A DNA stretch of 60,135 nucleotides, taken from positions 1 to 60,135 of the forward strand of contig JAJNNY010000109.1 of NCBI GenBank assembly GCA_022453515.1, given 5' to 3'. Within the stretch, counting starts at the first letter, position 1, and each line of letters begins with the position of its first letter. The DNA comes from Astrocystis sublimbata (lineage: Eukaryota; Ascomycota; Sordariomycetes; Xylariales; Xylariaceae). Of this stretch, positions 1 through 60,135 are shown piece after piece. A program made the translations under genes and the position numbers. The notes under the pieces are model-generated. The model worked only from the letters and a program-made list of their open reading frames with translations. It did not search any database and was not told the DNA's origin.

Positions 1-331
1 TCGTACCCTCGGCCAGCGACGGACCCGAGCCCCCTTATTTCGGGCGATTTAGACCCCTTCGATTTGCCCAAGCCTAGTTGACAATATCTTTACACTTCAA
101 GAGATTCTACAGAATAGAGCGCGGTGACAGACCCTAGTATGTAGTACCGACTTTTATGACAGACTTACATTGTCGTGCCTGATTCACGAAAAAAATGTGT
201 ATGTAACACAATTCAATAAACAGGCAACGGCCTCGTTGTCATGTGGACGAGGAAAGGTGACGGCTACCTTGGCGATAGACTCCGTGGGATATAACCAGCA
301 GTGTTCTATGATAAATGTTTGTTTGATACAG

Positions 332-11328: not shown

Positions 11329-11355
11329 AAGCAAACCTGGATCTGACTGCTCCAG
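11265..11355 (+). other. putative intron joining CVNH and HET ORFs
   Basis: The segment begins GTATGT (11,265) and ends CCAG (11,355), with a CTGAC branch site about 10 nt before the acceptor. Exon 1 would end in phase 2 and exon 2 begin with the single base needed, giving Leu at the join. A second AG at 11,361 is exactly 6 nt further on and also keeps the frame, so tandem acceptors are possible. Length 91 or 97 nt is typical for this genome. Not proven without transcript data. Confidence 0.5.
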
Positions 11356-11365
11356 ATGCAGCAAC

Positions 11366-29357: not shown

Positions 29358-29689
29358 GTTACGTCCAAGCTCCTTACGGTATACACATCGTACATGCATA
29401 CACATAGTAGTGATGCATTATAAACACGATCTCTACATCTATAAAGAACAACTTGAATGGTCAGCCATGCCTTCATAATGATAGGGAGTTCTTGTCGATC
29501 CAACCATTGCAGTGGAGTCATTTGATCTGGATTTACATTGCCAAGACTGTCCGACCTTCTCTGTTCGCGTTGTAATGCAGGCCAATAATGGCTACCTGCA
29601 GCCAATTGACGATAATGGCCAATCAGTGAAGATCATTGTGTCGTAATTGTTACATGGTAAGCAAGAGGGGTTGACATGAGTACCTACCT

Positions 29690-29765
29690 CCTCGTAAGCT
29701 ACCTAGGTACATAGGTATGTACCTACCTAGGTACTTCCTATATACCTAGATACCTCCTAGCCTGA
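29690..29765. repeat. CCTAGGTA-rich short-repeat tract, left arm
   Basis: Dense copies of TACCTAGGTA-like and ACCTACCT motifs, several self-complementary, with cores such as CTACCTAGGTAC. Similar motifs recur at about 9,770, 33,000, 33,115 and 43,100-43,190. This looks like a dispersed low-complexity fungal repeat with no coding content. Confidence 0.7.
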
Positions 29766-31310
29766 CACAGCCTTGGAGTCAGAAAGATAACATACATACA
29801 AACAAAATTAGAATTATGTGGTCTTGTAATGTTGCCTTATCCAACATGTTGAAACTGTGTGCTATAATATGGCGTCATTGTAACTAAGGAAGGACACATA
29901 GATAGCACTGTGGTATGGTTGTGAAGGTTCGGTTCCGGACATGATGGCGAGGAAGCAATAAGCTGACATATTGCCGCAAGATACCTCCTTACAAAGCACG
30001 TGATTAGAAGCAGATATGCGCTGAAAATGCAGGCTGAACCTGCTTGTTGCAACCACTATGCTACCTAATTGGGTAGGTAGGTTATATCAAGCACAAGCTA
30101 CGGAAAGATCCACGATTGGACAGATCGGATGATCATAGACTTGGAACATACAAGGGCTTCATGGAAATCTGGCCTAGATCTCACACGCAAACCTAGACCA
30201 ACATTAGCTACGAATGATATCGCTACATTCTACAATATACCTTGCCTTCAAAACTGGGCGGCTTACTCTCAGCCTGCCACGTTTTAATCATACCACATTC
30301 TTCATGCTCTGCTACCAGACATGCCAGAGCCTAAAGTAGATACTCCAACGCGACGTCTCATTTTTTAGGATACACACGCATCAAAGTTAGTGAAGTGCGT
30401 TAACATTGGACCAGCAGACTTCCCCCATAGCACTTACTCACTATAAGATGCACACGCACTGCACCCTTTTCAAAGCAGCAATTGACATGATTGGGTGCTA
30501 TATATCTCGCGTCCTAATGCTTCGTTCGGCATTTATCAGGTAGCTCTAGCGAAACCTCCGGTTACATCCGACAGCAGCCACCCCACATCATCATGATGTA
30601 CATTTTATTTATCAAACTCGGCGTCCACCCTTGATACATGATTAGTCTCAACAAATGACATTCAGGGCCCAATCATCTTCATTCTTGCCAAAATGCTCGC
30701 GTTAGATTGCCCCGCTTACGAACCCCAGACACGCATACTTGCATTAGAAGAGAATTTTGAGAAGAAGGGAGAGTCACAAAGCCTGTCGATAATGCCATGT
30801 ATCCAAGTTCATTGACTTCAATTGGCTGCTACGTGAGCTAAGGACTCCAATTTGAGCAAACATTTGAAAATTGTAGTATATGAGCTTGAGGTTGATTGGA
30901 AATAAGTAATGTTATGATATCTTGAGCGTTCAATCCCCATGTTGGGAGCTGAGCGCTGCAAGAGTGCGTCAGGCGGTGAGACTTATCACACTCACTATTG
31001 ACGGAAATACGAAGATTTGGCTGATTTCAGATTGCCGCATGTAGAAAGGTATTTTCAGCGACAGGAGCTGGGCGTCTTTGGGCTTGTTGATGACTCGAAA
31101 TGACACCCGGTGGCGTTATAATTCTTTTTCGCCTCCACACTCATAGTTGCACTGTATTCGGTCTGAGCAGACCCTGCCATTACCTTGGGGGTTATCTATG
31201 TCCCCAGTATCCAAGTACATAGGCCGACCTACAGGATAAGGAAACGTCTCAGTTGCTTTCCAGATATCGCCGCTCGAGTAGCTGTCTTAAATCCAATTCC
31301 AACAATTACA

Positions 31311-32690
31311 ATGCGGGACTTCGCCAAGACAAGCCTACAGCTCGCCTCGCAATGGTCCAATCCCAAGGATGTTACTACTATACTTATGATCATAGGAGGA
31401 GACATAGTTCAAAAGGCACTCGCGCAAACCACAGGATGCTTATATACTCCAGTTTGTTTCTCATTCGGTTGGGTAGCCTATGCTTTTATCGCGCTCATCG
31501 GCGTCATAGGCGACGGTAGACTTCTCCCACCTCCAGATTGTGCCGTCAAAGTATTCAATCTCAAGTCAGGCTACTATCGAGACAACAAACATTGGATCAT
31601 AGGGCGCATAGTTCGTGACATGGAGTCCTACATGTCAAGAACAGAACCAATGCCCCGTAGTGGACTACGCATTTCTGTCTGGAGGGCCGAGCAGAACCTA
31701 AACCACCATACGAATCATTCATATAGCAAGATTCATATCTTGGGGGTTGTGGTCACAGTCCTACAATTCACCATTGCGGCAATCCCTTTGATAGTGTATG
31801 GCAACTGGGGAGTCTTGTTGCTTACCGTGGCTGGCACATTTTTAGCACTTGTGATGGGTGCTCTACCCCAATGGCGAGCAGAGAAGCTGCCCAACAGACA
31901 ACATTCTTCTGCAAATTTTGCTTTAACGTTTGGCAATGGATCCAAAGATATCATGGTCATTCTCGGTGGCAAGAACAAGTGCCTGGATTTAGAGGAGCTT
32001 GCTTTTCAAGAGACGCCTCGCAACTTGAGACCTTGGGAAAAGTTTCGTAGGGCAAAGCCGGACTATTTCGAAAAGCCCCAGACAAGCTTAAAGGATTCAG
32101 TATATCAACATCGAAACAGAGTCCAGAAGATATACGATAGAATCCTATGGGGTCTTCCCATAGGTTTTTGGGTCACAATCGGCGTTTGCGTTGCACAGTC
32201 ACTTGCCTGGCTTCTCCTGCTACTCACTTCTGCAGGGTTCACTGAGAATGCTTGGTATATCATTCTAGTAGGCGTCATTGGTATGTTCCAAAATGCCTAC
32301 CTTGCCGCAGCAGAGAGAAGCCCAGACTCTCGCAACCTACCTCTTACGCACGTTGAGACGATTATAAGACAAAAGGTCATGGACGGTCTAATGGATCTAG
32401 AAATCGGCTATGATGGGTGTGGGCGTCCACTTTTGCGCGAGTTCTTCCCTGGCGTGTTACTACAAGACGAGGAAGCATGGTGGAATGGAGAGCGGAAGGA
32501 TTATGATCACAAGCGATCTCGGGAGAAGCAGTCGCGCGGTGCACCTCGGAGTCTGATGCCCTTTCTGAACTACCAGGAGCATGCTGCCCCACCGCCGCCG
32601 CGAAAATCGAATGAGGATATTAGGCAATCGAAATCATGGTTTCTGTCAAGAATGGTATATGGTTATCCCGTTGATTATCTTGAGGTCTAA
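31311..32690 (+). CDS. multi-span integral membrane protein, conserved fungal type (left-arm copy)
   Basis: Protein of 459 aa from ATG 31311; the frame opens upstream only through a non-ATG codon. I do not know a named function. There are at least four to six hydrophobic spans: around residues 30-60 (CFSFGWVAYAFIALIGVIG), about 140-185 (a pair including GVVVTVLQFTIAAIPLIVYG) and about 280-340 (WVTIGVCVAQSLAWLLLLL and WYIILVGVIGMFQNAYLAA). Conserved-looking polar segments are GGDIVQKALAQTTG near the start and DGRLLPPPDCAVKVFNLKSG between spans. The C-terminal third is cytosolic-looking, basic and Pro-rich. Such proteins are common in Pezizomycotina, but I can give no reaction or partner. The mirrored copy at 56,823-58,202 is frameshifted. 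Confidence 0.75.
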   Translation: MRDFAKTSLQLASQWSNPKDVTTILMIIGGDIVQKALAQTTGCLYTPVCFSFGWVAYAFIALIGVIGDGRLLPPPDCAVKVFNLKSGYYRDNKHWIIGRIVRDMESYMSRTEPMPRSGLRISVWRAEQNLNHHTNHSYSKIHILGVVVTVLQFTIAAIPLIVYGNWGVLLLTVAGTFLALVMGALPQWRAEKLPNRQHSSANFALTFGNGSKDIMVILGGKNKCLDLEELAFQETPRNLRPWEKFRRAKPDYFEKPQTSLKDSVYQHRNRVQKIYDRILWGLPIGFWVTIGVCVAQSLAWLLLLLTSAGFTENAWYIILVGVIGMFQNAYLAAAERSPDSRNLPLTHVETIIRQKVMDGLMDLEIGYDGCGRPLLREFFPGVLLQDEEAWWNGERKDYDHKRSREKQSRGAPRSLMPFLNYQEHAAPPPPRKSNEDIRQSKSWFLSRMVYGYPVDYLEV

Positions 32691-33982
32691 GTTCCCCGAA
32701 CTACTCGTCGGGGATGAAGCCTTCTTATATACACTCGGGTGGTCACGTGTGGGGCGTTCTCCATTGTATCTAGCCTTTATGGCTTTGACAGTTTCAACTA
32801 CCTCCGTCGCCAACACTCAAAACCGTCGATGAAGCTCCATACCAGCAATTGAGGGATGATTGACCAAGAAATATTCCCAACCGTGATCACTTTTATCATG
32901 TCTCCATCATCGCAGCCTTCTGTCTCACCAAACTCAACAGCAACCACACGATTGGAGGGAGATACAAAGAAACTATCTCAATTCCTTCCCTACCTAGGTA
33001 CTCATGCAATTGGGAGAACCAGTTCTTCACTCACGGTCTTTCCGGAGTTTTTGTACCTGCTAGTTTGGCAGTGACTGCCATGTAATGGTCAGGTTCTACG
33101 ACCCAGCAGACTACCTAGTAGGTAGCCTCCGTGCTGACCTAGACACTTTATGTAAGGGGCTTCGCGCCTAGGCTCTGCGCAATGGATTTTTCATCGTCAC
33201 CTCTCTTTTCTACCTCTTACGAATAGGGTTGCTTCCAAGTTTGATCAAATCTTTTTTTATCCCACCTACCGTCCCTTGTGTTTAAATTTAAGTTCGGGGG
33301 GCTCCGGGTTGGTCGATGTGCGGTACAGGGTCGGTGGTGCCATTAGGACCAGGGCTACTACAACAGTACGTTTAAAGGGCTGGAAAGGAAAAGGCGGAGG
33401 ATTGTGCGGGATTTGTACGTTTGCCGTTTTTATGGCATGGGCAGGTGTTCGAGCCCTCGTCGAGGTGGCCGGCGATGTCGCTCACGGCTGCGAAAGTGCA
33501 CCCCTAGGTCTCGTATGCGATTCATGCCCTCCCCCAATACATGATGATACGTTCAAACCAATCCTGTATTCTGCTGTGACTGTTAAAAACGTAGATGAAT
33601 GGTTTCTTCCATGTTTTGAATTTTCACTTTTTGGTGTAATACTTCACAGTTTGCTAATTACAGCGAGAGTTGCGATGCATAATTGATTGCCGCACTTATG
33701 TCATAATGCCATCCAAGATTATGTATACTATGATTACCATTTAAAAATGCTCATGCCATCTTGCACCGTAATCTTACTCGACGACACTATTACAACGACA
33801 CCGGCAAAAGGGTCAAACGTGGCTTCTGAATTTTGTACATTCAAGATCACAACCCCCTGCAACCATACCATTTTCAATATGTGTGCCCCATATGGTCTGA
33901 ACTAGCTTCCCCGACTGTGTGAAAGCCTGACTGAGCGGCGGTTGTCCGTTGGTTTTGCAAGGGTCTGCGATCACGGTTCACA
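32691..33982. other. intergenic region, left arm
   Basis: Between the membrane-protein gene and the 3' end of the HET gene. A 136-codon frame at 33,276-33,686 shows no domain and changes length in the mirrored copy, so I do not call it a gene. CCTAGGTA-type motifs lie at about 32,990-33,003 and 33,110-33,128. Confidence 0.4.
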
Positions 33983-36900
33983 TTAGTGCCGCTTCACTGA
34001 CTTCTTACCCATTTTCCTGAACCCCCACTTTCTACTAGCTATTAACCTCCAGGGGAAAGGACCCCGGGGAGGTTCGTCATGGGACGCCGAGGACAGCGTT
34101 GTCTCTTCCCTGTCCGGGAAATAGCCGTCCACGTACCAAACTTGGCCGTTGTCAAGCTCCTCTGCCACGCAAATAACGTTGTCCAGGTCGGTATTGACCA
34201 TACCCTCGGGAACCCGATCGTCATCACCGAGAACTGTGTAATCTTGGAAGAACCTTCCTCGATTGACTGCAATGAATTTGGGGTGGGTTTCACGGGAAAT
34301 TTTGACTCGGCGTATGATCTCGCAGTGAAATTCACGTTCGTTTCCCTCGTTTGAGATATCTGACCCAGTGTGCCTAGTCTCATTTTCGGATAGATGTGTC
34401 GACTGCACTTGATTCGGGTCAACTATCTCCCTGATCCGCACAAGGAGCGCTATATCAGGGTGCGCATGGCCGGGTCTCGAACGGGATAAAATAATGGCCC
34501 AGGGTTGTGAGTCGCCAATAAGTCGTTGGAGATCACGCGGACTGGCTGAGTCATCTGCAGGTTCGACGACATACCAATCCACAAGATTAGGACCTGTTGG
34601 AAACCAAAATCGCTTCTGCTGCTTGTCTGTTGCCAGCAAAAGCTTTTTGTTCTTTGACTCCAAAAGAAATCCCGGATAGGATACTCTCAACCCAGTTAAA
34701 TTCGCTGTATCAAGCTCCCCTGTGGAGTTTATGATGCCCAAGGGATCAGGGGCATCGATTGGAGTAGCAGACATCCATGTCCTAGGAGCCCAGCCGAATC
34801 CACGTTGTTTGATCTTGTCCCCAGGCAAAAAGATAATACCGGGTGGGATGGAGCTGGGCCAACGTGAGTTGAACTTGGTCCAGAATCGCACCATCCGCCC
34901 ATCCTTCTCTTCATCGTCATTAATTAAAGACTTCGCTTGGTCTAGACCAGCCGTTTCTATAGCGGTGCTTTGATAGTCCAAGTTCAAAAGTGTTGCAAGA
35001 GCAAGCGTCTCATGGTGTGAATTGCTTGTGGTCTATTACCATTGATCAGTAATTTGAGCTACCGGGTAGGAGGAAAATTCCGGAGTATGACGTACTCTCC
35101 ACTTCGCTGCCCGCCATACATTTGCTACGAGTACTGCAGCCGGTGTTCCGGCAAGACTTATGTCCTCTGTTCCAGGGTTCCGCTTCCGCTTTGCTCTTTC
35201 ATGGTCTAAGATGTGGTGCCGTAGGTGTTCGTCGACCTTGCTGAAAAGCGCTATTGCGATGCCATCTTGACCAGGATTTCTTAAATCTAATGAAATTTCG
35301 GTGAACTCTCTCATATTGCCGGACAGTTGGGCCTCCTTAAACGAGAAGTGGATCTTTTCGCTTAGGAATGCTTCCTGTAGCGTCCAGAGACGTCTCATCC
35401 AGCTACTAGCCAATATCTTCATTGCATCATGTGCGGGTTCGTTTCGTCTCCCCGGCGACATGCTAGCCAAGCCTTTGTCCAGGACGATTGTGAATGATGA
35501 TTTTCGAAAAACCTCGTAGATCTGCCCTATCGCTTGGTTTCTTACATCCTGATGATGCGATGCCACAGGAATAACCAACGTGTCCATCCAAAAAGGTCGC
35601 CATTGAGCCCCAAGTTTAGAAAGTTGTCGCCAAATGAATTGAAATTGGCAGGGATATAGCTTGTTATCAACTTCATTCCCAAAGCCGTCAGACCACACGT
35701 GAGAGATGGTTGCATATCCGCCATGCCCATGGCCTTGAGGAACAACCCTCAATCGGACACCCTCTTTCGGGTCTGTGTCAAATTGTACTAGCGGAATCTG
35801 GGCTCCCTCCTCCCGTCTCAAAAGCTCAAGGACTTTGTCCATATTTGGTCCCTGCATTGTCCCGCAATCTTTCTTACAGCCGTCCGCGTGCGCCGGCTGA
35901 TAGTTGTTGGTGTCATCAACAGCCGTGACGAGGCAACGATTCTTATCGCATTGTCGGTGGCTTGGACCGCTAAACCTCTCAGTGTTTGTGTAGGCTTCAT
36001 ACGATGCCAGAAGAAGCGTAGCATTTGATCGAAGATGACTTTGCCACAAAAAACAGGTTCTAGGGCACCAATGCTCCTCGTGCATTCTGACCCATACATA
36101 TCGTGGCCGCCCCCAGCCCTCTCCATCGTCGCGATGCCAACCCCTGAGTTCCGAAGGGGTATTCCGTAAAATCTGTGCCTTAGCGGCGGAAAGGGTTTCT
36201 CCTAGCACCATGAGTGAGAGCGCAATAGAATCGTGAACGTACAACGGGTTGCCTCGTGAGAGTTGCGAATGCTTGTTAAAGCTGCAATTTTTGCGTGTTA
36301 CCCTCCGCGCTAGATCCAGGATGCCCTCCACACGAATCAGTCTAAGCTTGATTCCATCGATATGTTGCGATTCCCACTGTTGCCACTTCTCAATTGCTCC
36401 ATTTAGCTCGCTGGTGCTAATATATTGTCTGTCATCGCCCAGGAGCTTATCGTATGTGAGAATTGGCCGCCCATCTTCTTGTACAATGGTGAATATGAGA
36501 CCAAAGAACAGCCAGGATTGTAGAAAGACAGCTAGATTCTCCTCGGTATTTAATAACAAATTCGATTGTGAGTCATTGCATAGACTGAGCTTGTAATCCT
36601 GGTCGAAGGCCCATCCCCTTTCTCTCAAAAAGGCATGAAATGTTACTGAATCTGTTGGAAAGCTGTATTGGCCCAATGTAGTGATGTTTTCAACCAAGAC
36701 ATCTTGGACTTTGAAGTATTTGCGAACATGATCCATAGGGTGAAATGACAACGGAATGTCTTTGTCCGTGGCCCGAAGTCTGCTAGCTAGTAACTGATAA
36801 CTCAAAGCCCAATGAGTGTGTATGTGTGTGTTTTGCAATGAATAGAGCAGAGACCTGGCCATATACTCGTCGGTGCTTTTGCAATGCCAGAGCCTCAGAT

Positions 36901-36994
36901 TTTCATGCAACCCCCTCTCAATGGCACATTTTCCACTACGACTCGAAATGCCTGGTTTAACCCATGAAGCTAGCTGGGCCGCCACAATTGACAC
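33983..36994 (-). CDS. large HET-domain protein, 2 exons (left-arm copy)
   Basis: Two open frames on the minus strand belong to one gene. Exon 1 is 36,994 (open-frame limit) to 35,096 and exon 2 is 35,032 to 33,983, with a 63-nt intron (GTACGT...AATAG). The phase-0 join reads AAKWRTTSNSHHETLALATLLNLD, a block that often follows the HET core, and is continued by GIIFLPGDKIKQRGFGWAP. This shows that the downstream frame, which has no ATG of its own, is the C-terminal part. The HET core has YATISHVWSDG (about 426), FWMDTLVIPV (about 466) and RRLWTLQEAF (about 533). The recovered part is 982 codons. The N-terminus is unresolved: the frame opens with GTG, the first in-frame ATG is 36,862, and an upstream exon is likely. 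Role by family: cytosolic incompatibility or immunity-like signalling. Confidence 0.85.
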
Positions 36995-39178
36995 CGGACT
37001 TGGACATATGATGCGGAATCTCCGGGCTGCATTGAGCTACATACTCGCTAGAATACGCCACGCTGAATATCAAAGACCCAGTAGTTTGAGGATCAAACCC
37101 TCCCTGTGACTTACGATCCAATCATCGCTCCATCGACATCGCCTTTACTCTTCTCGAGTATGTATGTAACCTCGTAATCACTTTCCTATGAAGGCAAGAA
37201 GGTAACTTTGGGGATAAATTCCATAGCAATGCAGGCTGCAATTTCATAGTACACATGTCAGGGGGTTGGGAACCCGGAGTCATTTCTAAAGTTGATGCAG
37301 GCTGCACGGAACACTTGCTTACTCCAAGCGCCATGTGAGATTCGCGCCGACATCGCTAGTCATATCGAATGACCGAAGCTTATCCCAAGCCTCCATGCAC
37401 ATATCACGCTATACCGAAGAACCAAAATGCAAGCGAATGGAGAGGCGGGCGTGAGGGGCGAGGTTTGATTTTCAAACACTACGTACTGCCAGACAGCCAG
37501 AATTCTTCCATTTGATATATTTCACTTCGGAATAACCCCAAGCGGTTAAATAATCTCAAAATAAGACAAGGACTTTACCCTAAGACAGATTAGATCGGAG
37601 CTTAGATTGCTCCAAAAAAGCCTCTCGAGTGTGCCTATCAAATTCTAACGGACAGGTCGGCTGCATTCCAACTGGCCTCTGTTTTATAAATCTAGGACTG
37701 ATCGGTTCGGTAAGCATCCCGGTTTGATCACCATGCTCCGGCGGTATATCCACTTGACCACCCACAGAAAGATGTACCGATACTTAGATACATGTATTTA
37801 CCAGGGCACTGCTATTGACACCCCCGTTACAACCTCTTGATCATTGCAGGATTATTGGTTGGAGTGTGCATCAAAGTCGACTCAAGTGGCTTGGCAAACC
37901 CGCATCTGCATGTACAGTCCACATATCGTTGCGGCTCTGATATGGTATTCCCGCATGGGCCATGTGAGTTGTTTGTCTACTTGGAGATATGATGTCTTTT
38001 GGGGCTGAACTATCTCGACCTGAGGGGAGTTGGCTTCTTGTAGTACACTGAAGACCAACACAGTGGTTTTTTCTATTTTTGAATGCCGGTTTCATGAATA
38101 GAATGCATTGAGGCGTGTCTTTTAATACACGAGCTACAACTTCCAATCAGTCCTGATTAACTGCCGCAGGGTCGGATGAAGTGGTGGTGTTTTCATCAAA
38201 TGATCAGCTGTCATACCCTCCAAACGGGGCCGTCCTTGCCCCGCACTCTCGAGCCAACGTCGTGAGATAACAGCGATACACACACGTCATTGCGCACACG
38301 TAATAACTTGCTCAACTACTCACATCAACGAAGGAAATAGTTGGGATTCCCCCTCTTCTATTTAAGTAGCTGACACAGGCACAAATTTGAACAAAAGCGC
38401 AGCTTACAATCATCCACCCATATCCTTTCACCAAGCCCAAGTACCGCGCTAGTGCAGCCACATATAGGGGGTTTTTCCGGGCATGTATCTGCTGCAAAAT
38501 GACCTTCCGTGTGGTGCCTGAGCTCTGGCTTTATCCCATTGCGGTATAGACTACTAGCGCAGGTACTTCCCCACTGGCGATTTTACTAGGGTAGGAACTG
38601 TAGTTGCTGAGAGGAATGCCAAGATCGCAGATCCTCGAATCCCATGCTAGTAGAATTATTGCGTAGGTGACGAAGCAGCCGTCTTCTGATTCAAGGCCCA
38701 TGAGGGCTATGGGAGCATCGTTTAAACTGACCCCCTATTAGTGTTGCCACCTCACATAAGACATGTCTAAAAACAGGGCTCTGTTTGTGTCTGGGCCAGT
38801 CCTTCTCAAATAACAGCCCCGTGGATTAGCTCTGTGTGGCTCTGCAGTGTTGCCTGCTTCAGGCACCCTCTGACACCAGGAGTTAAGCCATGGGATGGGG
38901 GCCTGAGCACATGCAGCCACTTGATCCCCCAATTTAAAATGAACCACGGGCCACTTGACACCTCGACTTGGATCTACACTCCATGGCCCACGTATCCTCA
39001 CCTTCATCATAATAACTACCACAATCGGACCATCCCATCATGAAGGTAAATCTAGCTGCAGCCCTATCCGTGGTGTGGTCGAAAACTCATATTACGTGTA
39101 GACCTCGAGGTTCAAAGTGTTGCAGAAAGCTCGCAATCAACCACCCGAGTATGAGTAGGTACAGCGCTTCAAACTATC
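36995..39178. other. intergenic region, left arm
   Basis: About 2.2 kb with only short frames. The first part may contain the missing 5' exon of the HET gene. At 37,447-37,449 a GGG run is GG in the mirrored copy, the first arm difference met on moving out from the axis. Confidence 0.45.
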
Positions 39179-39425
39179 ATGTACTGGGACCTGACGACAA
39201 ATAGCTTGATTCTAGTTCATCCATTCGCATTCAGTCCTGAACACAGGAACCATCGCTTCTTCCTGGAAACATTGCTTACCGGCACGTGTGTGAATGAAGA
39301 GAGAGCTATGCAAAATGCATACTGCTGCTCTTTCGATGGCAGTGCACTTCTAGCTGGGAAAACTACACTTCCTGCTCTCTCGAACCATTTGCAGACATAT
39401 CTGAGGTCGAAACGCTCCCCTCCAG

Positions 39426-40025
39426 ATGACAGGAAGTCTTTACTCTCCACCTACGAGCGAGGAAGCCTTAGTGAAACAGAGAGAGACTGTGTCCGTATCA
39501 ACACCAACGACCAGTAATCCTCAGAGAGCACCGCCTCTTGTCTTCATTACACACAGCCTTGGCTCATATGTTACAAGACATATGCTCACACATTACAACG
39601 ATCCGAGTGCATCAATCTTCGACACTGTAGGTATAATGAACCTGGATGACATGAACAATGAGTCGAACCCAAATGTTGACGATTACCTTCGTGCACTATG
39701 CCAATTGTTGTCTGAACCGTTGCAGGCGGAATACAGTCCTAAGATAATAAATATTCTGGAACCGTTCTCCTTGGAGGAAAAATCTATTCTGGAGGAAAGA
39801 CAGAAAGATAACCGTCTCGGGGAGCTCATTCAAAAGAAGTTCACTGTTTGGATCCATGGTGACCAGGTAGATGAAGATAATGGCCAGGTACGATCGTCAC
39901 ATACTTCTAGCATATTTCCCACCTCTAACAGATCCACAGAAATTAGGATGGCGACGAGGACAAAAGCTTATTCAAACCATATATTCCAAATCCAGATGGC
40001 CGCAAGCCAAACTGATTGGCAATGA
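39426..40025 (+). CDS. alpha/beta-hydrolase domain fragment, N-terminal part of a TPR locus (left-arm copy)
   Basis: Open frame of 199 aa whose core APPLVFITHSLGSYVTRHML carries the G/T-H-S-L-G nucleophile elbow of serine alpha/beta-hydrolases; these sit at the N-terminus of many fungal NLR-like and TPR proteins. The useful coding part probably ends around 39,860-39,890, where a donor (GTGACC or GTACGA) could splice to the TPR frame starting near 39,931. The exact junction is unclear because phases fit only for some donor/acceptor pairs. An overlapping frame at 39,179-39,517 may belong to the 5' part. Immediately upstream, in the hydrolase frame, a TGA replaces what could have been CGA, hinting at decay. 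A catalytic Asp/His pair could not be assigned. Confidence 0.55.
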   Translation: MTGSLYSPPTSEEALVKQRETVSVSTPTTSNPQRAPPLVFITHSLGSYVTRHMLTHYNDPSASIFDTVGIMNLDDMNNESNPNVDDYLRALCQLLSEPLQAEYSPKIINILEPFSLEEKSILEERQKDNRLGELIQKKFTVWIHGDQVDEDNGQVRSSHTSSIFPTSNRSTEIRMATRTKAYSNHIFQIQMAASQTDWQ

Positions 40026-44735: not shown

Positions 44736-44785
44736 TATATATTTTTAGTATATTTTTATAATCTTTTAAAAATAGAGATATATAT
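44736..44785. other. palindrome spacer (50 nt, AT-rich)
   Basis: The only non-mirrored sequence at the axis. Arms match up to 44,735 and from 44,786. The spacer is almost entirely A and T and only weakly self-complementary (ATATATAT ends, T-run against A-run). Its length is near that of a long-read hairpin adapter but its composition does not look like one. Confidence 0.85.
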
Positions 44786-45691: not shown

Positions 45692-46593
45692 GTAGGCAAT
45701 ATTTGGAAGGCACGAACACAATGAAAGAAAGCATAAGAATATAATAGAAGTAGGCATGAAGCAGTTAATCACGGAGCATATAGTTTTACTACTATACTAT
45801 GAATTACCTACGATTACGATTATAATTACAAGCACACGAGCCGACTAGCTAGGGAAGTATATAATTATTGATCAGCTTTGTGAGTCATGTTTGGTGGTGT
45901 ACTTCGAGAGAAGTGTTGGTGGATTTCAGAAGTATTTTTGGCGTGCAGAAGACTTCCCTAGCCCCTAGGTTTCCCACTATGGTAATTACTACATACCTAG
46001 GTACACTGATTGTCATGACTCGTGACTTGGTATACGACAAAGAGTTCTTACTAACAAGGGATGGATGTATCTATGAGACCATCTGACTGTGAGTTCAAGA
46101 ACTGTGCATACAATATCAAAAACTGTATCCATAGCACCATCACTCGAATTTACCTGGGTGAGGTCGCTCGCATCAAACTTGAACCTGACCCACACATGTA
46201 CCTAGTTTTCCCTGTTCCTTAAGTCTAACCTTGATTTTTCGTAAGTTCTACCACTTGCATAAATCAATGTCATCCACTCTCATCATGCCTTTTGAGAAAT
46301 AATCCACACCCAGACAAATGTGCAAGGTCAATACTCACCTGCTTACCTTAGGTACCTAGTAGTTACTTAGGTATTTAAGTACTTAGTCACATGTTGCAGT
46401 CAATCACCTACCTTACCTAGTAATACCCATGTCAACATACCGCATGATGTCATCAGGCTATCAATATCTCTGCATAAAAATATAGACTGCAAACATAAAG
46501 GGAACAAAAGAGATATAGATCATCATTAACTGACTGTACGAAAACCTTTGAAGATTAAAAGAAAAATCTCACTCTCCGGAACTCACTGCTATC

Positions 46594-49500: not shown

Positions 49501-49650
49501 GCCAATCAGTTTGGCTTGCGGCCATCTGGATTTGGAATATATGGTTTGAATAAGCTTTTGTCCTCGTCGCCATCCTAATTTCTGTGGATCTGTTAGAGGT
49601 GGGAAATATGCTAGAAGTATGTGACGATCGTACCTGGCCATTATCTTCAT
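46594..49650 (-). pseudogene. TPR-repeat protein with in-frame stop (right-arm mirror copy)
   Basis: Mirror of 39,871-42,927 with both sub-frames unchanged in length and sequence (49,650-47,920, stop, then to 46,594). The premature stop at 47,920-47,922 is shared with the left arm. This part of the right arm shows no length difference from the left. Confidence 0.8.
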
Positions 49651-50095
49651 CTACCTGGTCACCATGGATCCAAACAGTGAACTTCTTTTGAATGAGCTCC
49701 CCGAGACGGTTATCTTTCTGTCTTTCCTCCAGAATAGATTTTTCCTCCAAGGAGAACGGTTCCAGAATATTTATTATCTTAGGACTGTATTCCGCCTGCA
49801 ACGGTTCAGACAACAATTGGCATAGTGCACGAAGGTAATCGTCAACATTTGGGTTCGACTCATTGTTCATGTCATCCAGGTTCATTATACCTACAGTGTC
49901 GAAGATTGATGCACTCGGATCGTTGTAATGTGTGAGCATATGTCTTGTAACATATGAGCCAAGGCTGTGTGTAATGAAGACAAGAGGCGGTGCTCTCTGA
50001 GGATTACTGGTCGTTGGTGTTGATACGGACACAGTCTCTCTCTGTTTCACTAAGGCTTCCTCGCTCGTAGGTGGAGAGTAAAGACTTCCTGTCAT
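49496..50095 (-). CDS. alpha/beta-hydrolase domain fragment (right-arm mirror copy)
   Basis: Mirror of 39,426-40,025 with the same 199-codon frame and the same THSLGS elbow. Overlaps the start of the TPR frame, as in the left arm. It gives no independent evidence for the gene model because it is an exact copy. Confidence 0.5.
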   Translation of the reverse strand: MTGSLYSPPTSEEALVKQRETVSVSTPTTSNPQRAPPLVFITHSLGSYVTRHMLTHYNDPSASIFDTVGIMNLDDMNNESNPNVDDYLRALCQLLSEPLQAEYSPKIINILEPFSLEEKSILEERQKDNRLGELIQKKFTVWIHGDQVDEDNGQVRSSHTSSIFPTSNRSTEIRMATRTKAYSNHIFQIQMAASQTDWQ

Positions 50096-52525
50096 CTGGA
50101 GGGGAGCGTTTCGACCTCAGATATGTCTGCAAATGGTTCGAGAGAGCAGGAAGTGTAGTTTTCCCAGCTAGAAGTGCACTGCCATCGAAAGAGCAGCAGT
50201 ATGCATTTTGCATAGCTCTCTCTTCATTCACACACGTGCCGGTAAGCAATGTTTCCAGGAAGAAGCGATGGTTCCTGTGTTCAGGACTGAATGCGAATGG
50301 ATGAACTAGAATCAAGCTATTTGTCGTCAGGTCCCAGTACATGATAGTTTGAAGCGCTGTACCTACTCATACTCGGGTGGTTGATTGCGAGCTTTCTGCA
50401 ACACTTTGAACCTCGAGGTCTACACGTAATATGAGTTTTCGACCACACCACGGATAGGGCTGCAGCTAGATTTACCTTCATGATGGGATGGTCCGATTGT
50501 GGTAGTTATTATGATGAAGGTGAGGATACGTGGGCCATGGAGTGTAGATCCAAGTCGAGGTGTCAAGTGGCCCGTGGTTCATTTTAAATTGGGGGATCAA
50601 GTGGCTGCATGTGCTCAGGCCCCCATCCCATGGCTTAACTCCTGGTGTCAGAGGGTGCCTGAAGCAGGCAACACTGCAGAGCCACACAGAGCTAATCCAC
50701 GGGGCTGTTATTTGAGAAGGACTGGCCCAGACACAAACAGAGCCCTGTTTTTAGACATGTCTTATGTGAGGTGGCAACACTAATAGGGGGTCAGTTTAAA
50801 CGATGCTCCCATAGCCCTCATGGGCCTTGAATCAGAAGACGGCTGCTTCGTCACCTACGCAATAATTCTACTAGCATGGGATTCGAGGATCTGCGATCTT
50901 GGCATTCCTCTCAGCAACTACAGTTCCTACCCTAGTAAAATCGCCAGTGGGGAAGTACCTGCGCTAGTAGTCTATACCGCAATGGGATAAAGCCAGAGCT
51001 CAGGCACCACACGGAAGGTCATTTTGCAGCAGATACATGCCCGGAAAAACCCCCTATATGTGGCTGCACTAGCGCGGTACTTGGGCTTGGTGAAAGGATA
51101 TGGGTGGATGATTGTAAGCTGCGCTTTTGTTCAAATTTGTGCCTGTGTCAGCTACTTAAATAGAAGAGGGGGAATCCCAACTATTTCCTTCGTTGATGTG
51201 AGTAGTTGAGCAAGTTATTACGTGTGCGCAATGACGTGTGTGTATCGCTGTTATCTCACGACGTTGGCTCGAGAGTGCGGGGCAAGGACGGCCCCGTTTG
51301 GAGGGTATGACAGCTGATCATTTGATGAAAACACCACCACTTCATCCGACCCTGCGGCAGTTAATCAGGACTGATTGGAAGTTGTAGCTCGTGTATTAAA
51401 AGACACGCCTCAATGCATTCTATTCATGAAACCGGCATTCAAAAATAGAAAAAACCACTGTGTTGGTCTTCAGTGTACTACAAGAAGCCAACTCCCCTCA
51501 GGTCGAGATAGTTCAGCCCCAAAAGACATCATATCTCCAAGTAGACAAACAACTCACATGGCCCATGCGGGAATACCATATCAGAGCCGCAACGATATGT
51601 GGACTGTACATGCAGATGCGGGTTTGCCAAGCCACTTGAGTCGACTTTGATGCACACTCCAACCAATAATCCTGCAATGATCAAGAGGTTGTAACGGGGG
51701 TGTCAATAGCAGTGCCCTGGTAAATACATGTATCTAAGTATCGGTACATCTTTCTGTGGGTGGTCAAGTGGATATACCGCCGGAGCATGGTGATCAAACC
51801 GGGATGCTTACCGAACCGATCAGTCCTAGATTTATAAAACAGAGGCCAGTTGGAATGCAGCCGACCTGTCCGTTAGAATTTGATAGGCACACTCGAGAGG
51901 CTTTTTTGGAGCAATCTAAGCTCCGATCTAATCTGTCTTAGGGTAAAGTCCTTGTCTTATTTTGAGATTATTTAACCGCTTGGGGTTATTCCGAAGTGAA
52001 ATATATCAAATGGAAGAATTCTGGCTGTCTGGCAGTACGTAGTGTTTGAAAATCAAACCTCGCCCCTCACGCCGCCTCTCCATTCGCTTGCATTTTGGTT
52101 CTTCGGTATAGCGTGATATGTGCATGGAGGCTTGGGATAAGCTTCGGTCATTCGATATGACTAGCGATGTCGGCGCGAATCTCACATGGCGCTTGGAGTA
52201 AGCAAGTGTTCCGTGCAGCCTGCATCAACTTTAGAAATGACTCCGGGTTCCCAACCCCCTGACATGTGTACTATGAAATTGCAGCCTGCATTGCTATGGA
52301 ATTTATCCCCAAAGTTACCTTCTTGCCTTCATAGGAAAGTGATTACGAGGTTACATACATACTCGAGAAGAGTAAAGGCGATGTCGATGGAGCGATGATT
52401 GGATCGTAAGTCACAGGGAGGGTTTGATCCTCAAACTACTGGGTCTTTGATATTCAGCGTGGCGTATTCTAGCGAGTATGTAGCTCAATGCAGCCCGGAG
52501 ATTCCGCATCATATGTCCAAGTCCG

Positions 52526-55500
52526 GTGTCAATTGTGGCGGCCCAGCTAGCTTCATGGGTTAAACCAGGCATTTCGAGTCGTAGTGGAAAATGTGCCATT
52601 GAGAGGGGGTTGCATGAAAATCTGAGGCTCTGGCATTGCAAAAGCACCGACGAGTATATGGCCAGGTCTCTGCTCTATTCATTGCAAAACACACACATAC
52701 ACACTCATTGGGCTTTGAGTTATCAGTTACTAGCTAGCAGACTTCGGGCCACGGACAAAGACATTCCGTTGTCATTTCACCCTATGGATCATGTTCGCAA
52801 ATACTTCAAAGTCCAAGATGTCTTGGTTGAAAACATCACTACATTGGGCCAATACAGCTTTCCAACAGATTCAGTAACATTTCATGCCTTTTTGAGAGAA
52901 AGGGGATGGGCCTTCGACCAGGATTACAAGCTCAGTCTATGCAATGACTCACAATCGAATTTGTTATTAAATACCGAGGAGAATCTAGCTGTCTTTCTAC
53001 AATCCTGGCTGTTCTTTGGTCTCATATTCACCATTGTACAAGAAGATGGGCGGCCAATTCTCACATACGATAAGCTCCTGGGCGATGACAGACAATATAT
53101 TAGCACCAGCGAGCTAAATGGAGCAATTGAGAAGTGGCAACAGTGGGAATCGCAACATATCGATGGAATCAAGCTTAGACTGATTCGTGTGGAGGGCATC
53201 CTGGATCTAGCGCGGAGGGTAACACGCAAAAATTGCAGCTTTAACAAGCATTCGCAACTCTCACGAGGCAACCCGTTGTACGTTCACGATTCTATTGCGC
53301 TCTCACTCATGGTGCTAGGAGAAACCCTTTCCGCCGCTAAGGCACAGATTTTACGGAATACCCCTTCGGAACTCAGGGGTTGGCATCGCGACGATGGAGA
53401 GGGCTGGGGGCGGCCACGATATGTATGGGTCAGAATGCACGAGGAGCATTGGTGCCCTAGAACCTGTTTTTTGTGGCAAAGTCATCTTCGATCAAATGCT
53501 ACGCTTCTTCTGCATCGTATGAAGCCTACACAAACACTGAGAGGTTTAGCGGTCCAAGCCACCGACAATGCGATAAGAATCGTTGCCTCGTCACGGCTGT
53601 TGATGACACCAACAACTATCAGCCGGCGCACGCGGACGGCTGTAAGAAAGATTGCGGGACAATGCAGGGACCAAATATGGACAAAGTCCTTGAGCTTTTG
53701 AGACGGGAGGAGGGAGCCCAGATTCCGCTAGTACAATTTGACACAGACCCGAAAGAGGGTGTCCGATTGAGGGTTGTTCCTCAAGGCCATGGGCATGGCG
53801 GATATGCAACCATCTCTCACGTGTGGCTGACGGCTTTGGGAATGAAGTTGATAACAAGCTATATCCCTGCCAATTTCAATTCATTTGGCGACAACTTTCT
53901 AAACTTGGGGCTCAATGGCGACCTTTTTGGATGGACACGTTGGTTATTCCTGTGGCATCGCATCATCAGGATGTAAGAAACCAAGCGATAGGGCAGATCT
54001 ACGAGGTTTTTCGAAAATCATCATTCACAATCGTCCTGGACAAAGGCTTGGCTAGCATGTCGCCGGGGAGACGAAACGAACCCGCACATGATGCAATGAA
54101 GATATTGGCTAGTAGCTGGATGAGACGTCTCTGGACGCTACAGGAAGCATTCCTAAGCGAAAAGATCCACTTCTCGTTTAAGGAGGCCCAACTGTCCGGC
54201 AATATGAGAGAGTTCACCGAAATTTCATTAGATTTAAGAAATCCTGGTCAAGATGGCATCGCAATAGCGCTTTTCAGCAAGGTCGACGAACACCTACGGC
54301 ACCACATCTTAGACCATGAAAGAGCAAAGCGGAAGCGGAACCCTGGAACAGAGGACATAAGTCTTGCCGGAACACCGGCTGCAGTACTCGTAGCAAATGT
54401 ATGGCGGGCAGCGAAGTGGAGAGTACGTCATACTCCGGAATTTTCCTCCTACCCGGTAGCTCAAATTACTGATCAATGGTAATAGACCACAAGCAATTCA
54501 CACCATGAGACGCTTGCTCTTGCAACACTTTTGAACTTGGACTATCAAAGCACCGCTATAGAAACGGCTGGTCTAGACCAAGCGAAGTCTTTAATTAATG
54601 ACGATGAAGAGAAGGATGGCGGATGGTGCGATTCTGGACCAAGTTCAACTCACGTTGGCCCAGCTCCATCCCACCCGGTATTATCTTTTGCCTGGGGACA
54701 AGATCAAACAACGTGGATTCGGCTGGGCTCCTAGGACATGGATGTCTGCTACTCCAATCGATGCCCCTGATCCCTTGGGCATCATAAACTCCACAGGGGA
54801 GCTTGATACAGCGAATTTAACTGGGTTGAGAGTATCCTATCCGGGATTTCTTTTGGAGTCAAAGAACAAAAAGCTTTTGCTGGCAACAGACAAGCAGCAG
54901 AAGCGATTTTGGTTTCCAACAGGTCCTAATCTTGTGGATTGGTATGTCGTCGAACCTGCAGATGACTCAGCCAGTCCGCGTGATCTCCAACGACTTATTG
55001 GCGACTCACAACCCTGGGCCATTATTTTATCCCGTTCGAGACCCGGCCATGCGCACCCTGATATAGCGCTCCTTGTGCGGATCAGGGAGATAGTTGACCC
55101 GAATCAAGTGCAGTCGACACATCTATCCGAAAATGAGACTAGGCACACTGGGTCAGATATCTCAAACGAGGGAAACGAACGTGAATTTCACTGCGAGATC
55201 ATACGCCGAGTCAAAATTTCCCGTGAAACCCACCCCAAATTCATTGCAGTCAATCGAGGAAGGTTCTTCCAAGATTACACAGTTCTCGGTGATGACGATC
55301 GGGTTCCCGAGGGTATGGTCAATACCGACCTGGACAACGTTATTTGCGTGGCAGAGGAGCTTGACAACGGCCAAGTTTGGTACGTGGACGGCTATTTCCC
55401 GGACAGGGAAGAGACAACGCTGTCCTCGGCGTCCCATGACGAACCTCCCCGGGGTCCTTTCCCTGGAGGTTAATAGCTAGTAGAAAGTGGGGGTTCAGGA

Positions 55501-55532
55501 AAATGGGTAAGAAGTCAGTGAAGCGGCACTAA
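52526..55532 (+). pseudogene. HET-domain gene, frameshifted right-arm mirror copy
   Basis: Mirror of the HET gene at 33,983-36,994, broken into several frames (52,526-53,701; 53,473-53,976; 53,823-54,482; 54,598-55,473). I located single-base losses relative to the left arm at about 53,512 (GG to G), 53,826 (a T), 54,619 (GGG to GG), 54,690 (TTTTT to TTTT) and 55,462 (CCCC to CCC). The left copy is open throughout, so these are lesions in the right copy or sequencing errors. All lie in short homopolymers or dinucleotide contexts. The intron corresponding to 35,033-35,095 is preserved. Confidence 0.85.
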
Positions 55533-56822
55533 TGTGAACCGTGATCGCAGACCCTTGCAAAACCAACGGACAACCGCCGCTCAGTCAGCTTTCACACAGT
55601 CGGGGAAGCTAGTTCAGACCATATGGGGCACACATATTGAAAATGGTATGGTTGCAGGGGGTTGTGATCTTGAATGTACAAAATTCAGAAGCCACGTTTG
55701 ACCCTTTTGCCGGTGTCGTTGTAATAGTGTCGTCGAGTAAGATTACGGTGCAAGATGGCATGAGCATTTTTAAATGGTAATCATAGTATACATAATCTTG
55801 GATGGCATTATGACATAAGTGCGGCAATCAATTATGCATCGCAACTCTCGCTGTAATTAGCAAACTGTGAAGTATTACACCAAAAGTGAAAATTCAAAAC
55901 ATGGAAGAAACCATTCATCTACGTTTTTAACAGTCACAGCAGAATACAGGATTGGTTTGAACGTATCATCATGTATTGGGGGAGGGCATGAATCGCATAC
56001 GAGACCTAGGGGTGCACTTTCGCAGCCGTGAGCGACATCGCCGGCCACCTCGACGAGGGCTCGAACACCTGCCCATGCCATAAAAACGGCAAACGTACAA
56101 ATCCCGCACAATCCTCCGCCTTTTCCTTTCCAGCCCTTTAAACGTACTGTTGTAGTAGCCCTGGTCCTAATGGCACCACCGACCCTGTACCGCACATCGA
56201 CCAACCCGGAGCCCCCCGAACTTAAATTTAACACAAGGGACGGTAGGTGGGATAAAAAAAAGATTTGATCAAACTTGGAAGCAACCCTATTCGTAAGAGG
56301 TAGAAAAGAGAGGTGACGATGAAAAATCCATTGCGCAGAGCCTAGGCGCGAAGCCCCTTACATAAAGTGTCTAGGTCAGCACGGAGGCTACCTACTAGGT
56401 AGTCTGCTGGGTCGTAGAACCTGACCATTACATGGCAGTCACTGCCAAACTAGCAGGTACAAAAACTCCGGAAAGACCGTGAGTGAAGAACTGGTTCTCC
56501 CAATTGCATGAGTACCTAGGTAGGGAAGGAATTGAGATAGTTTCTTTGTATCTCCCTCCAATCGTGTGGTTGCTGTTGAGTTTGGTGAGACAGAAGGCTG
56601 CGATGATGGAGACATGATAAAAGTGATCACGGTTGGGAATATTTCTTGGTCAATCATCCCTCAATTGCTGGTATGGAGCTTCATCGACGGTTTTGAGTGT
56701 TGGCGACGGAGGTAGTTGAAACTGTCAAAGCCATAAAGGCTAGATACAATGGAGAACGCCCCACACGTGACCACCCGAGTGTATATAAGAAGGCTTCATC
56801 CCCGACGAGTAGTTCGGGGAAC

Positions 56823-58202
56823 TTAGACCTCAAGATAATCAACGGGATAACCATATACCATTCTTGACAGAAACCATGATTTCGATTGCCTAATATCCTC
56901 ATTCGATTTTCGCGGCGGCGGTGGGGCAGCATGCTCCTGGTAGTTCAGAAAGGGCATCAGACTCCGAGGTGCACCGCGCGACTGCTTCTCCCGAGATCGC
57001 TTGTGATCATAATCCTTCCGCTCTCCATTCCACCATGCTTCCTCGTCTTGTAGTAACACGCCAGGGAAGAACTCGCGCAAAAGTGGACGCCCACACCCAT
57101 CATAGCCGATTTCTAGATCCATTAGACCGTCCATGACCTTTTGTCTTATAATCGTCTCAACGTGCGTAAGAGGTAGGTTGCGAGAGTCTGGGCTTCTCTC
57201 TGCTGCGGCAAGGTAGGCATTTTGGAACATACCAATGACGCCTACTAGAATGATATACCAAGCATTCTCAGTGAACCCTGCAGAAGTGAGTAGCAGGAGA
57301 AGCCAGGCAAGTGACTGTGCAACGCAAACGCCGATTGTGACCCAAAAACCTATGGGAAGACCCCATAGGATTCTATCGTATATCTTCTGGACTCTGTTTC
57401 GATGTTGATATACTGAATCCTTTAAGCTTGTCTGGGGCTTTTCGAAATAGTCCGGCTTTGCCCTACGAAACTTTTCCCAAGGTCTCAAGTTGCGAGGCGT
57501 CTCTTGAAAAGCAAGCTCCTCTAAATCCAGGCACTTGTTCTTGCCACCGAGAATGACCATGATATCTTTGGATCCATTGCCAAACGTTAAAGCAAAATTT
57601 GCAGAAGAATGTTGTCTGTTGGGCAGCTTCTCTGCTCGCCATTGGGGTAGAGCACCCATCACAAGTGCTAAAAATGTGCCAGCCACGGTAAGCAACAAGA
57701 CTCCCCAGTTGCCATACACTATCAAAGGGATTGCCCGCAATGGTGAATTGTAGGACTGTGACCACAACCCCCAAGATATGAATCTTGCTATATGAATGAT
57801 TCGTATGGTGGTTTAGGTTCTGCTCGGCCCTCCAGACAGAAATGCGTAGTCCACTACGGGGCATTGGTTCTGTTCTTGACATGTAGGACTCCATGTCACG
57901 AACTATGCGCCCTATGATCCAATGTTTGTTGTCTCGATAGTAGCCTGACTTGAGATTGAATACTTTGACGGCACAATCTGGAGGTGGGAGAAGTCTACCG
58001 TCGCCTATGACGCCGATGAGCGCGATAAAAGCATAGGCTACCAACCGAATGAGAAACAAACTGGAGTATATAAGCATCCTGTGGTTTGCGCGAGTGCCTT
58101 TTGAACTATGTCTCCTCCTATGATCATAAGTATAGTAGTAACATCCTTGGGATTGGACCATTGCGAGGCGAGCTGTAGGCTTGTCTTGGCGAAGTCCCGC
58201 AT
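56823..58202 (-). pseudogene. integral membrane protein gene, frameshifted right-arm mirror copy
   Basis: Mirror of 31,311-32,690. Two one-base changes break it: GG to GGG at about 57,735 and GGG to GG at about 58,042. Between them the frame is shifted, so the membrane spans around left-arm residues 45-155 are misread. The two changes cancel in length but not in meaning over that interval. The remaining sequence equals the left copy. Confidence 0.82.
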
Positions 58203-59739
58203 TGTAATTGTTGGAATTGGATTTAAGACAGCTACTCGAGCGGCGATATCTGGAAAGCAACTGAGACGTTCCTTATCCTGTAGGTCGGCCTATGTACTTG
58301 GATACTGGGGACATAGATAACCCCCAAGGTAATGGCAGGGTCTGCTCAGACCGAATACAGTGCAACTATGAGTGTGGAGGCGAAAAAGAATTATAACGCC
58401 ACGGGTGTCATTTCGAGTCATCAACAAGCCCAAAGACGCCAGTCTGTCGCTGAAAATACCTTTCTACATGCGGCAATCTGAAATCAGCCAAATCTTCGTA
58501 TTTCCGTCAATAGTGAGTGTGATAAGTCTCACCGCCTGACGCACTCTTGCAGCGCTCAGCTCCCAACATGGGGATTGAACGCTCAAGATATCATAACATT
58601 ACTTATTTCCAATCAACCTCAAGCTCATATACTACAATTTTCAAATGTTTGCTCAAATTGGAGTCCTTAGCTCACGTAGCAGCCAATTGAAGTCAATGAA
58701 CTTGGATACATGGCATTATCGACAGGCTTTGTGACTCTCCCTTCTTCTCAAAATTCTCTTCTAATGCAAGTATGCGTGTCTGGGGTTCGTAAGCGGGGCA
58801 ATCTAACGCGAGCATTTTGGCAAGAATGAAGATGATTGGGCCCTGAATGTCATTTGTTGAGACTAATCATGTATCAAGGGTGGACGCCGAGTTTGATAAA
58901 TAAAATGTACATCATGATGATGTGGGTGGCTGCTGTCGGATGTAACCGGAGGTTTCGCTAGAGCTACCTGATAAATGCCGAACGAAGCATTAGGACGCGA
59001 GATATATAGCACCCAATCATGTCAATTGCTGCTTTGAAAAGGGTGCAGTGCGTGTGCATCTTATAGTGAGTAAGTGCTATGGGGGAAGTTGCTGGTCCAA
59101 TGTTAACGCACTTCACTAACTTTGATGCGTGTGTATCTAAAAAATGAGACGTCGCGTTGGAGTATCACTTTAGGCTCTGGCATGTCTGGTAGCAGAGCAT
59201 GAAGAATGTGGTATGATTAAAACGGCAGGCTGAGAGTAAGCGCCCAGTTTTGAAGGCAAGGTATATTGTAGAATGTAGCGATATCATTCGTAGCTAATGT
59301 TGGTCTAGTTTGCGTGTGAGATCTAGGCCAGATTTCCATGAAGCCCTTGTATGTTCCAAGTCTATGATCATCCGATCTGTCCAATCGTGGATCTTTCCGT
59401 AGCTTGTGCTTGATATAAACCTACCTACCAATTAGGTAGCATAGTGGTTGCAACAAGCAGGTTCAGCCTGATTTTCAGCGCATATCTGCTTCTAATCACG
59501 TGCTTTGTAAGGAGGTATCTTGCGGCAATATGTCAGCTTATTGCTCCTCGCCATCATGTCCGGAACCGAACCTTCACAACCATACCACAGTGCTATCTAT
59601 GTGTCCTTCCTTAGTTACAATGACGCCATATTATAGCACACAGTTCAACATGTTGGATAAGGCAACATTACAAGACCAATAATTCTAATTTTGTTTGTAT
59701 GTATGTTATCTTTCTGACTCCAAGGCTGTGTCAGGCTAG

Positions 59740-59815
59740 GAGGTATCTAGGTATATAGGAAGTACCTAGGTAGGCATACCTATGTACCTAGGTAGCTTAC
59801 GAGGAGGTAGGTACT
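59740..59815. repeat. CCTAGGTA-rich short-repeat tract, right arm
   Basis: Mirror of the tract at 29,690-29,765. It differs by a two-base loss within the central GTATGTACCT stretch, among several small losses in the last 1.9 kb. Confidence 0.65.
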
Positions 59816-60135
59816 CATGTCAACCCCTCTTGCTTACCATGTAACAATTACGACACAATGATCTTCACTGATTGGCCATTATCGTCAATGGCTGCAGGTA
59901 GCCATTATTGGCCTGCATTACAACGCGAACAGAGAAGGTCGGACAGTCTTGGCAATGTAAATCCAGATCAAATGACTCCACTGCAATGGTTGGATCGACA
60001 AGAACTCCCTATCATTATGAAGGCATGGCTGACCATTCAAGTTGTTCTTTATAGATGTAGAGATCGTGTTTATAATGCATCACTACTATGTGTATGCATG
60101 TACGATGTGTATACCGTAAGGAGCTTGGACGTAAC

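Follow-up and report, generated by a model that had tools for sequence, protein, structure and literature searches.

Heinz, Meyerson and Li (PMC12870357) describe fold-back artifact reads in long-read data and warn that they tangle assembly graphs. The reads in that report are near-perfect palindromes whose halves may or may not be separated by other sequence, and in this they resemble the structure examined here, whereas our fold-back persisted into a contig. Inverted copies that likewise spoil long-read assembly are addressed by Pacasus (Warris et al., PMC6218980); those palindromes come from amplification, of which our locus bears no evidence, and the turn points in our assembly are AT-rich. 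In nanopore ligation libraries, inverted repeats are reported as the main class of false chimeras (0.18-7.33%; PMC13141652), with a structure similar to ours. The PacBio samples described in PMC12870357 were without systematic fold-backs. A palindrome of tens of kilobases is also known within an ascomycete chromosome, on chromosome 14 of Zymoseptoria tritici (Croll et al., PMC3681731), where a sister-chromatid fusion chromosome was studied by gels, hybridization, and read depth. That palindrome lies inside the chromosome (500-550 kb) and is flanked by Copia remnants, whereas the one described here lies at a contig end.

The window, meaning the whole stretch of DNA analyzed, is an entire contig of 60,135 nt (referred to as C12) from Astrocystis sublimbata (Xylariaceae). 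Our search of the literature on A. sublimbata and xylarialean endophytes found no paper describing this assembly. Comparison of the window with itself yielded a single inverted match, at 29358-60135 with 99.72% identity, which is far beyond chance; no further inverted or direct self-match was found within the 60,135 nt. The near-perfect palindrome of more than 30 kb with a 50-nt spacer that had been proposed is therefore present, and the arm coordinates bear out its axis at 44760.5. The claim that the whole right half of the window is a mirror was wrong. The palindrome in its entirety takes up 30.8 of 60.1 kb, roughly half of the window, and only the last quarter mirrors the 15.4 kb before it. 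The right arm runs to the final base of the contig (60135), without sequence beyond it. The features are as follows.

1..29357, no strand: left flank, not mirrored anywhere in the window
29358..44735, plus strand: left arm, 15,378 nt, taken as the true copy; its open frames are longer than those of the mirror
31167..32690, plus strand: left-arm open frame of 507 codons
43899..44735, plus strand: dispersed repeat, one copy of which forms the axis-proximal end of the left arm, with relatives on contigs C179, C46, C18, C114, and C103
44734..44742, no strand: inverted micro-match of about 9 nt, the strand turning point, from the alignment of repeat relatives
44736..44785, minus strand: spacer, an unpaired loop of 50 nt with 8% GC
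44786..60135, minus strand: right arm, 15,350 nt, mirror of the left arm and very probably spurious
52071..59888, right arm: zone holding all 32 indel places, with density rising toward the contig end
56823..58272, minus strand: mirror of the 507-codon frame in the right arm, split into two (269 and 329 codons)

Our main reading, to which we assign a probability of about 0.92, is that the right arm arose as a technical fold-back copy and is absent from the genome. The same structure could be a recent, real fold-back inverted duplication in the chromosome, produced by breakage-fusion-bridge or by repair of a hairpin-capped break and as yet without substitutions, which we consider very improbable.

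Outside the spacer, the arms share 15,347 matched bases with no substitution, RIP-type or other, and differ by 32 indel events of 1-2 nt. In 29 of these it is the right arm that lacks the bases (binomial P = 2.6e-6); 22 fall in the final 2.5 kb of the contig (KS P = 1.7e-9), and 24 are in runs of at least two equal bases, compared with 44% of arm bases. The differences look like consensus error, which argues against a real duplication, as does the lack of transitions between the arms when copies of the dispersed repeat differ from one another mostly by transitions (RIP-like). A very young duplication would likewise be without substitutions. Differences of the consensus type only, and worse in the presumed spurious arm, were found in C12 but are not general among the other terminal palindromes described below (C103, C179, and C132). 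Seven bases are absent from the terminal arm of C103 and 10 from its inner arm, the corresponding numbers for C179 are three and six, and the two contigs have three and four mismatches, respectively, with most differences close to the axis. Neither contig shows the end-weighted, one-sided indel pattern of C12, an observation that counts against the artifact reading.

Alignment of the repeat relatives locates the point at which the strand turns. The relatives align with the left arm as far as 44742, and with the spacer and right arm from about 44730-44734. Aligned with five genomic relatives, the minus-strand spacer proved to be the native continuation of the repeat. The repeat family at 43.75-44.44 kb is real, as copies are present on other contigs. 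The original prediction of a decayed LINE in the arms was not confirmed, since two open reading frames of the repeat in this interval gave no Pfam hit at E ≤ 0.01.

We propose that a DNA end in the AT-rich repeat tail at 44.7 kb became single-stranded, during library making or sequencing, and folded on itself through the micro-match, leaving the 50-nt loop. Extension of the folded end with its own strand as template, or a reading that turned back over it, would then have given a molecule or read consisting of arm, loop, and reverse arm. The assembler would have extended the contig with one or more such reads, so that the contig ends in a mirror of its own last 15 kb. On this reading, the fold-back arose in vitro or on the sequencer rather than in the fungus, and the true sequence past 44,785 is probably missing from C12. 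The loop and micro-match geometry is also compatible with a real duplication; common to both origins, these features are not diagnostic. PacBio HiFi genomic DNA is reported to contain virtually no fold-backs (PMC12870357); if the assembly represents unamplified PacBio data, this counts against the artifact reading, as it leaves the step behind the fold-backs hard to identify.

The spacer also bears on a second technical origin, an undetected PacBio hairpin adapter, in which both strands of a molecule are read as one and the adapter is left midway. A missed adapter is a known artifact that would leave a palindrome at the contig end, its halves separated by roughly the length of an adapter. Because the spacer is genomic, namely the repeat's own continuation in the five aligned relatives, we rejected this explanation for C12. 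The centers of other palindromic contig ends likewise disagree with it: in C11, C168, C172, C179, and C57 they leave too little room for an adapter, and in C114 and C103 they are irregular AT-rich stretches. Overall, a missed adapter is barely credible.

Palindromes formed by whole-genome amplification (MDA) before sequencing would be a sub-case of the artifact reading, included in its 0.92, and we regard this origin as unlikely. Fungal cultures seldom need MDA, and no sign of amplification of this DNA was found. In its favor, MDA is reported to produce palindromic molecules (PMC6218980, PMC13265396).

Fold-backs recur at other contig ends. Among the candidates scored (40 of 81 in part of the terminus survey and 40 of 47 in the interior survey), 7 of 34 probed termini on 18 other contigs had an inverted copy of 99-100% identity on the same contig, compared with 0 of 16 interior probes (Fisher one-sided P = 0.054). 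When restricted to the 23 terminal pieces with GC of at least 0.42, a subset picked post hoc, the comparison gave P = 0.016. The contigs surveyed were those met in earlier searches and are a non-random sample. The end of C132, found separately, is also palindromic up to the contig's last base. With C12 and C132 included, 37 termini from 19 contigs were examined, and nine of them fold back. The mirror copies at these nine termini measure between roughly 3 and 37 kb. Every one of the nine axes is AT-rich, with GC of 0.28 or less in 200 bp. Control windows reached this level in 0 of 2,228 cases in C12 1-44760 and in 22 of 136 cases in the contig termini sampled. Mirrors that run to the very contig end (C12 and C132) and that recur at unrelated places of the assembly are the pattern of a fold-back artifact. 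Real duplications at 9 of 37 termini would instead mean that one genome carries many giant palindromes and that each is truncated within its second arm. Short AT-rich hairpins in the repeats of this fungus could also be real weak points, at which breaks in living cells become hairpin-capped or are copied back; we give this only a slim chance. If it were true, the contig-end palindromes would be real DNA of the culture that the assembler picked up, not library products.

Two of the other palindromes show particular features. In C132, a patch at 275223-276843 contains 154 inter-arm differences, of which 153 are transitions. This patch is not explicable by one bad read and does not fit the artifact reading smoothly; it would suit a real duplication at C132. 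Searches for another source of the patch listed, besides the two arms of C132 themselves, nothing but part of the C15 end. We considered C132 as a contrast case, a real RIP-aged palindrome, and dropped it, as the palindrome reaches the last base and the differences are confined to the patch. C11 and C179 share one short fold hairpin, which six of six aligned relatives retain while running on unfolded, an observation in favor of the artifact reading. As an alternative for this pair we considered a native deletion element whose center is palindromic. No copy with that center was listed besides the two fold-back axes, which makes folding at the hairpin they share the simpler explanation.

For the C12 palindrome itself, a chromosomal origin has precedents, since inverted repeats are reported to cause inverted rearrangements in living cells (PMC10766183, PMC10164571) and a large palindrome is known on the Z. 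tritici chromosome (PMC3681731). Other sequence beyond the far arm, expected of a real duplication, is absent from the contig. None of the matches listed was a contig continuing the right arm, which weighs only weakly because one of the listings lacked even the window's own place. The proposed link to breakage-fusion-bridge events and accessory chromosomes is unsupported, given the terminal position, the lack of substitutions, and the giant palindromes that nine termini would need; nothing in the analysis marked A. sublimbata as a plant pathogen or C12 as an accessory chromosome. The opposite possibility raised in the original prediction, an artifact that doubles the gene count, is supported by the terminal position, the mostly one-sided and indel-only differences in C12, the recurrence at contig ends, and a broken gene copy in GenBank.

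This copy concerns the 507-codon frame, which matches the GenBank protein F4808DRAFT_454040 (426 aa) with 100% identity over 81% of the frame. Its broken mirror is probably the source of a second GenBank protein, F4808DRAFT_454042 (357 aa). Two versions of one protein, one longer and one broken, are therefore in GenBank from a contig of 60,135 bp. Frames in the right arm are split or shortened, compared with whole frames in the left arm, because of the indels there. A false "paralogue" with 82% identity has apparently entered GenBank by way of one mirror copy.

These results are a warning for a public assembly in which nine examined termini bear mirror copies. As all nine axes are AT-rich, there is a simple way of spotting such ends. 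The genes of the mirrored region are very probably present once in the fungus, not twice, and mirrored ends should be trimmed before gene counts, paralogue studies, or claims of giant palindromes are made in Astrocystis sublimbata.

The window, 60,135 bases long, is one contig (C12; JAJNNY010000109.1) among the 189 that make up a 42.6-Mb assembly of the xylariaceous ascomycete Astrocystis sublimbata. Self-comparison returned a single inverted match, at 29358-60135 with 99.72% identity, and no other match, so the near-perfect palindrome with a 50-nt spacer reported in the original prediction is correct as an observation. The parts of the palindrome, and the left-arm reading frames that are split or shortened in the right arm, are as follows.

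29358-44735, left arm
44736-44785, 50-nt spacer
44786-60135, right arm, the mirror of the left
31167-32690, frame of 507 codons
33983-35032, frame of 349 codons
35036-37036, frame of 666 codons

With the spacer excluded, the arms share 15,347 matched bases with no substitutions, and they differ in 32 events, each a gap of one or two bases. The base is absent from the right arm in 29 of these events, and runs of at least two identical bases hold 24 of the 32, compared with 44% of the arm's bases. Counted in 2.5-kb steps from the contig end (the last step being 2.85 kb), the tallies are 22, 5, 4, 1, 0, and 0, and the frames closer to the axis (206, 576, 441, 194, and 182 codons) are equal in both arms. 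This is the pattern of residual consensus error as support drops towards the contig end. Ageing of duplicated genes does not look like this. The absence of substitutions also supports an artefact, as supporting evidence only, because a duplication of age zero would have none either.

The broken frames appear to have reached the protein database. Two A. sublimbata entries in GenBank, of 426 and 357 amino acids and both from a contig of 60,135 bases, correspond to the gene at 31.2-32.7 kb. The longer is 100% identical to the gene over the matched part. The shorter agrees with it in 349 of 426 columns, with 69 gaps, differing by missing stretches and short altered bits adjoining them. Because of these gaps and the broken frames of the right arm, we infer that the 357-aa protein derives from that arm. 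Frame 31167-32690 had no Pfam match at E ≤ 0.01; it encodes a conserved protein, one listed relative of which carries the source name "SMODS and SLOG-associating 2TM...".

Next to the spacer, 0.84 kb of both arms belongs to a dispersed repeat that has relatives on contigs C179, C46, C18, C114, and C103. On the minus strand, the right arm and spacer give an unbroken alignment with each of the five relatives, which run on past the spacer-aligned part into further repeat sequence, and the left arm departs from them at 44734-44742. Therefore, the spacer is simply where the repeat continues, which rules it out as an adapter, and the strand reversed through a ~9-nt match (AATATATAT). The order of arm, 50-nt loop, and reverse arm is, as judged from these alignments, the geometry of a self-primed snap-back or an inverted template switch. 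Substitutions between the repeat and its copies are mostly transitions (C179, 106/108; C46, 119/120; C103, 42/43; C18, 43/45; the most distant copy, C114, 126/187), an excess that suggests RIP-like divergence. The arms of C12, which the original prediction expected to be unstable or subject to RIP if the palindrome were real, carry no substitutions.

Contig C132 also ends in a palindrome. TTAGGG positions on it are symmetric about 277,747, the 10.5 kb around this axis is an inverted repeat, and the final 2,000 bases are 99.95% identical to their mirror counterpart, with a single indel. The palindrome would span about 37 kb, provided that the intervening unread sequence matches too. Leaving C12 aside, we then used 140-base pieces to probe 34 termini on 18 contigs (18 starts and 16 ends). 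Seven probes had an inverted copy at 99-100% on their own contig (starts of C179, C168, and C57; ends of C11, C114, C103, and C172), in a nonrandom sample of contigs met in earlier repeat and telomere searches. The last eight contig ends probed, mostly AT-rich repeat, gave no inverted copy among the 40 candidates scored out of 81. Interior probes (16 of 23 chosen, on eight contigs) gave 0/16, with 40 of 47 candidates scored (Fisher's one-sided P = 0.054 for 7/34 versus 0/16). For the 23 terminal pieces with GC ≥ 0.42, a subset picked afterwards to resemble the interior probes, P = 0.016.

The terminal palindromes thus number nine with C12 and C132, at about 3 to 37 kb. Full reading covered C12, C103, C179, and C57, and for C11, C114, C172, and C168 the coverage was the terminal probe plus 0.8 kb of axis sequence. 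Missing bases in the terminal and inner arms number 7 and 10 in C103 (plus three mismatches) and 3 and 6 in C179 (plus four mismatches). These two contigs do not fit smoothly, as their differences concentrate around the axis and the terminal arm is not the poorer of the two.

Every one of the nine axes is rich in AT, with a GC of 0.02-0.28 in the central 200 bases. Windows of 200 bases with GC this low occur in 0 of 2,228 cases in C12 1-44760 and in 22 of 136 from fetched contig termini. Palindrome centres are short in C11, C168, C172, C179, and C57; those of C114 and C103 form irregular stretches of some 70-90 bases. The axes of C11 and C179 are homologous. Six relatives of their repeat, including one pair on C141, have the same short inverted repeat at this axis, followed by a common different sequence; unlike these, C11 and C179 carry the mirror of their own arm beyond the hairpin. 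The simplest reading would be that two separate copies each folded at a short hairpin native to the repeat. This AT-rich dispersed repeat lies at C179 ~2093-2378, C11 ~46520-46810, and C132:3240 and on C57, C141 (an inverted pair ~1.7 kb apart), C113, and C155. The hairpin at one end of its matched part is the fold site in two contigs, and the axes of C114 and C57 have weaker relatives nearby.

A biological palindrome, the real fold-back duplication that the original prediction had entertained, is very unlikely, since nine contig termini stop partway through a mirror copy of themselves. The most likely mechanism would be snap-back at AT-rich, hairpin-prone sites during preparation or reading of long DNA. 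A search with C12 34000-44000 returned no other contig with the arm among the matches listed; as the window's own place was also absent, this argues weakly that no other contig carries it. Fold-back reads are a known artefact class (Heinz et al., PMC12870357; Warris et al., PMC6218980; PMC13141652; PMC13265396). Heinz et al. describe PacBio HiFi genomic DNA as virtually free of fold-backs, and therefore the platform matters for the reading of C12. The palindrome of Z. tritici chromosome 14 lies inside a chromosome (PMC3681731), whereas that of C12 lies at a contig end.

One stretch does not fit a terminal artefact smoothly. At C132 275223-276843, a 1.6-kb patch holds 154 arm differences, 153 of them transitions; the rest of the compared 10.5 kb has no substitution between arms. 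At a guess, the patch is a mixed consensus from unassembled subtelomeric copies, though it may also be a real aged duplication; searches with either version found, among the matches listed, only C132 and part of the telomeric end of C15. Five-unit TTAGGG arrays lie within and just before the patch, and C132 has two such arrays spaced by 493 bases. The locus C15 57306-58025 is a telomere end at which the contig closes with 38 TTAGGG units, and 492 bases ahead of these a five-unit array begins.

Further frames on C12 are as follows.

10204-11328, CVNH domain
11321-13468 and 14593-16530, HET domain; weakly also 35036-37036
19254-20429, plus strand, single frame of 391 codons with all three eRF1 domains, release factor/Pelota-like
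22197-25187, WD40 repeats
26.4-27.8 kb, P450, 97% identical to an Astrocystis sublimbata protein in a protein search

The HET, CVNH, and WD40 frames are a possible fungal non-self-recognition cluster.
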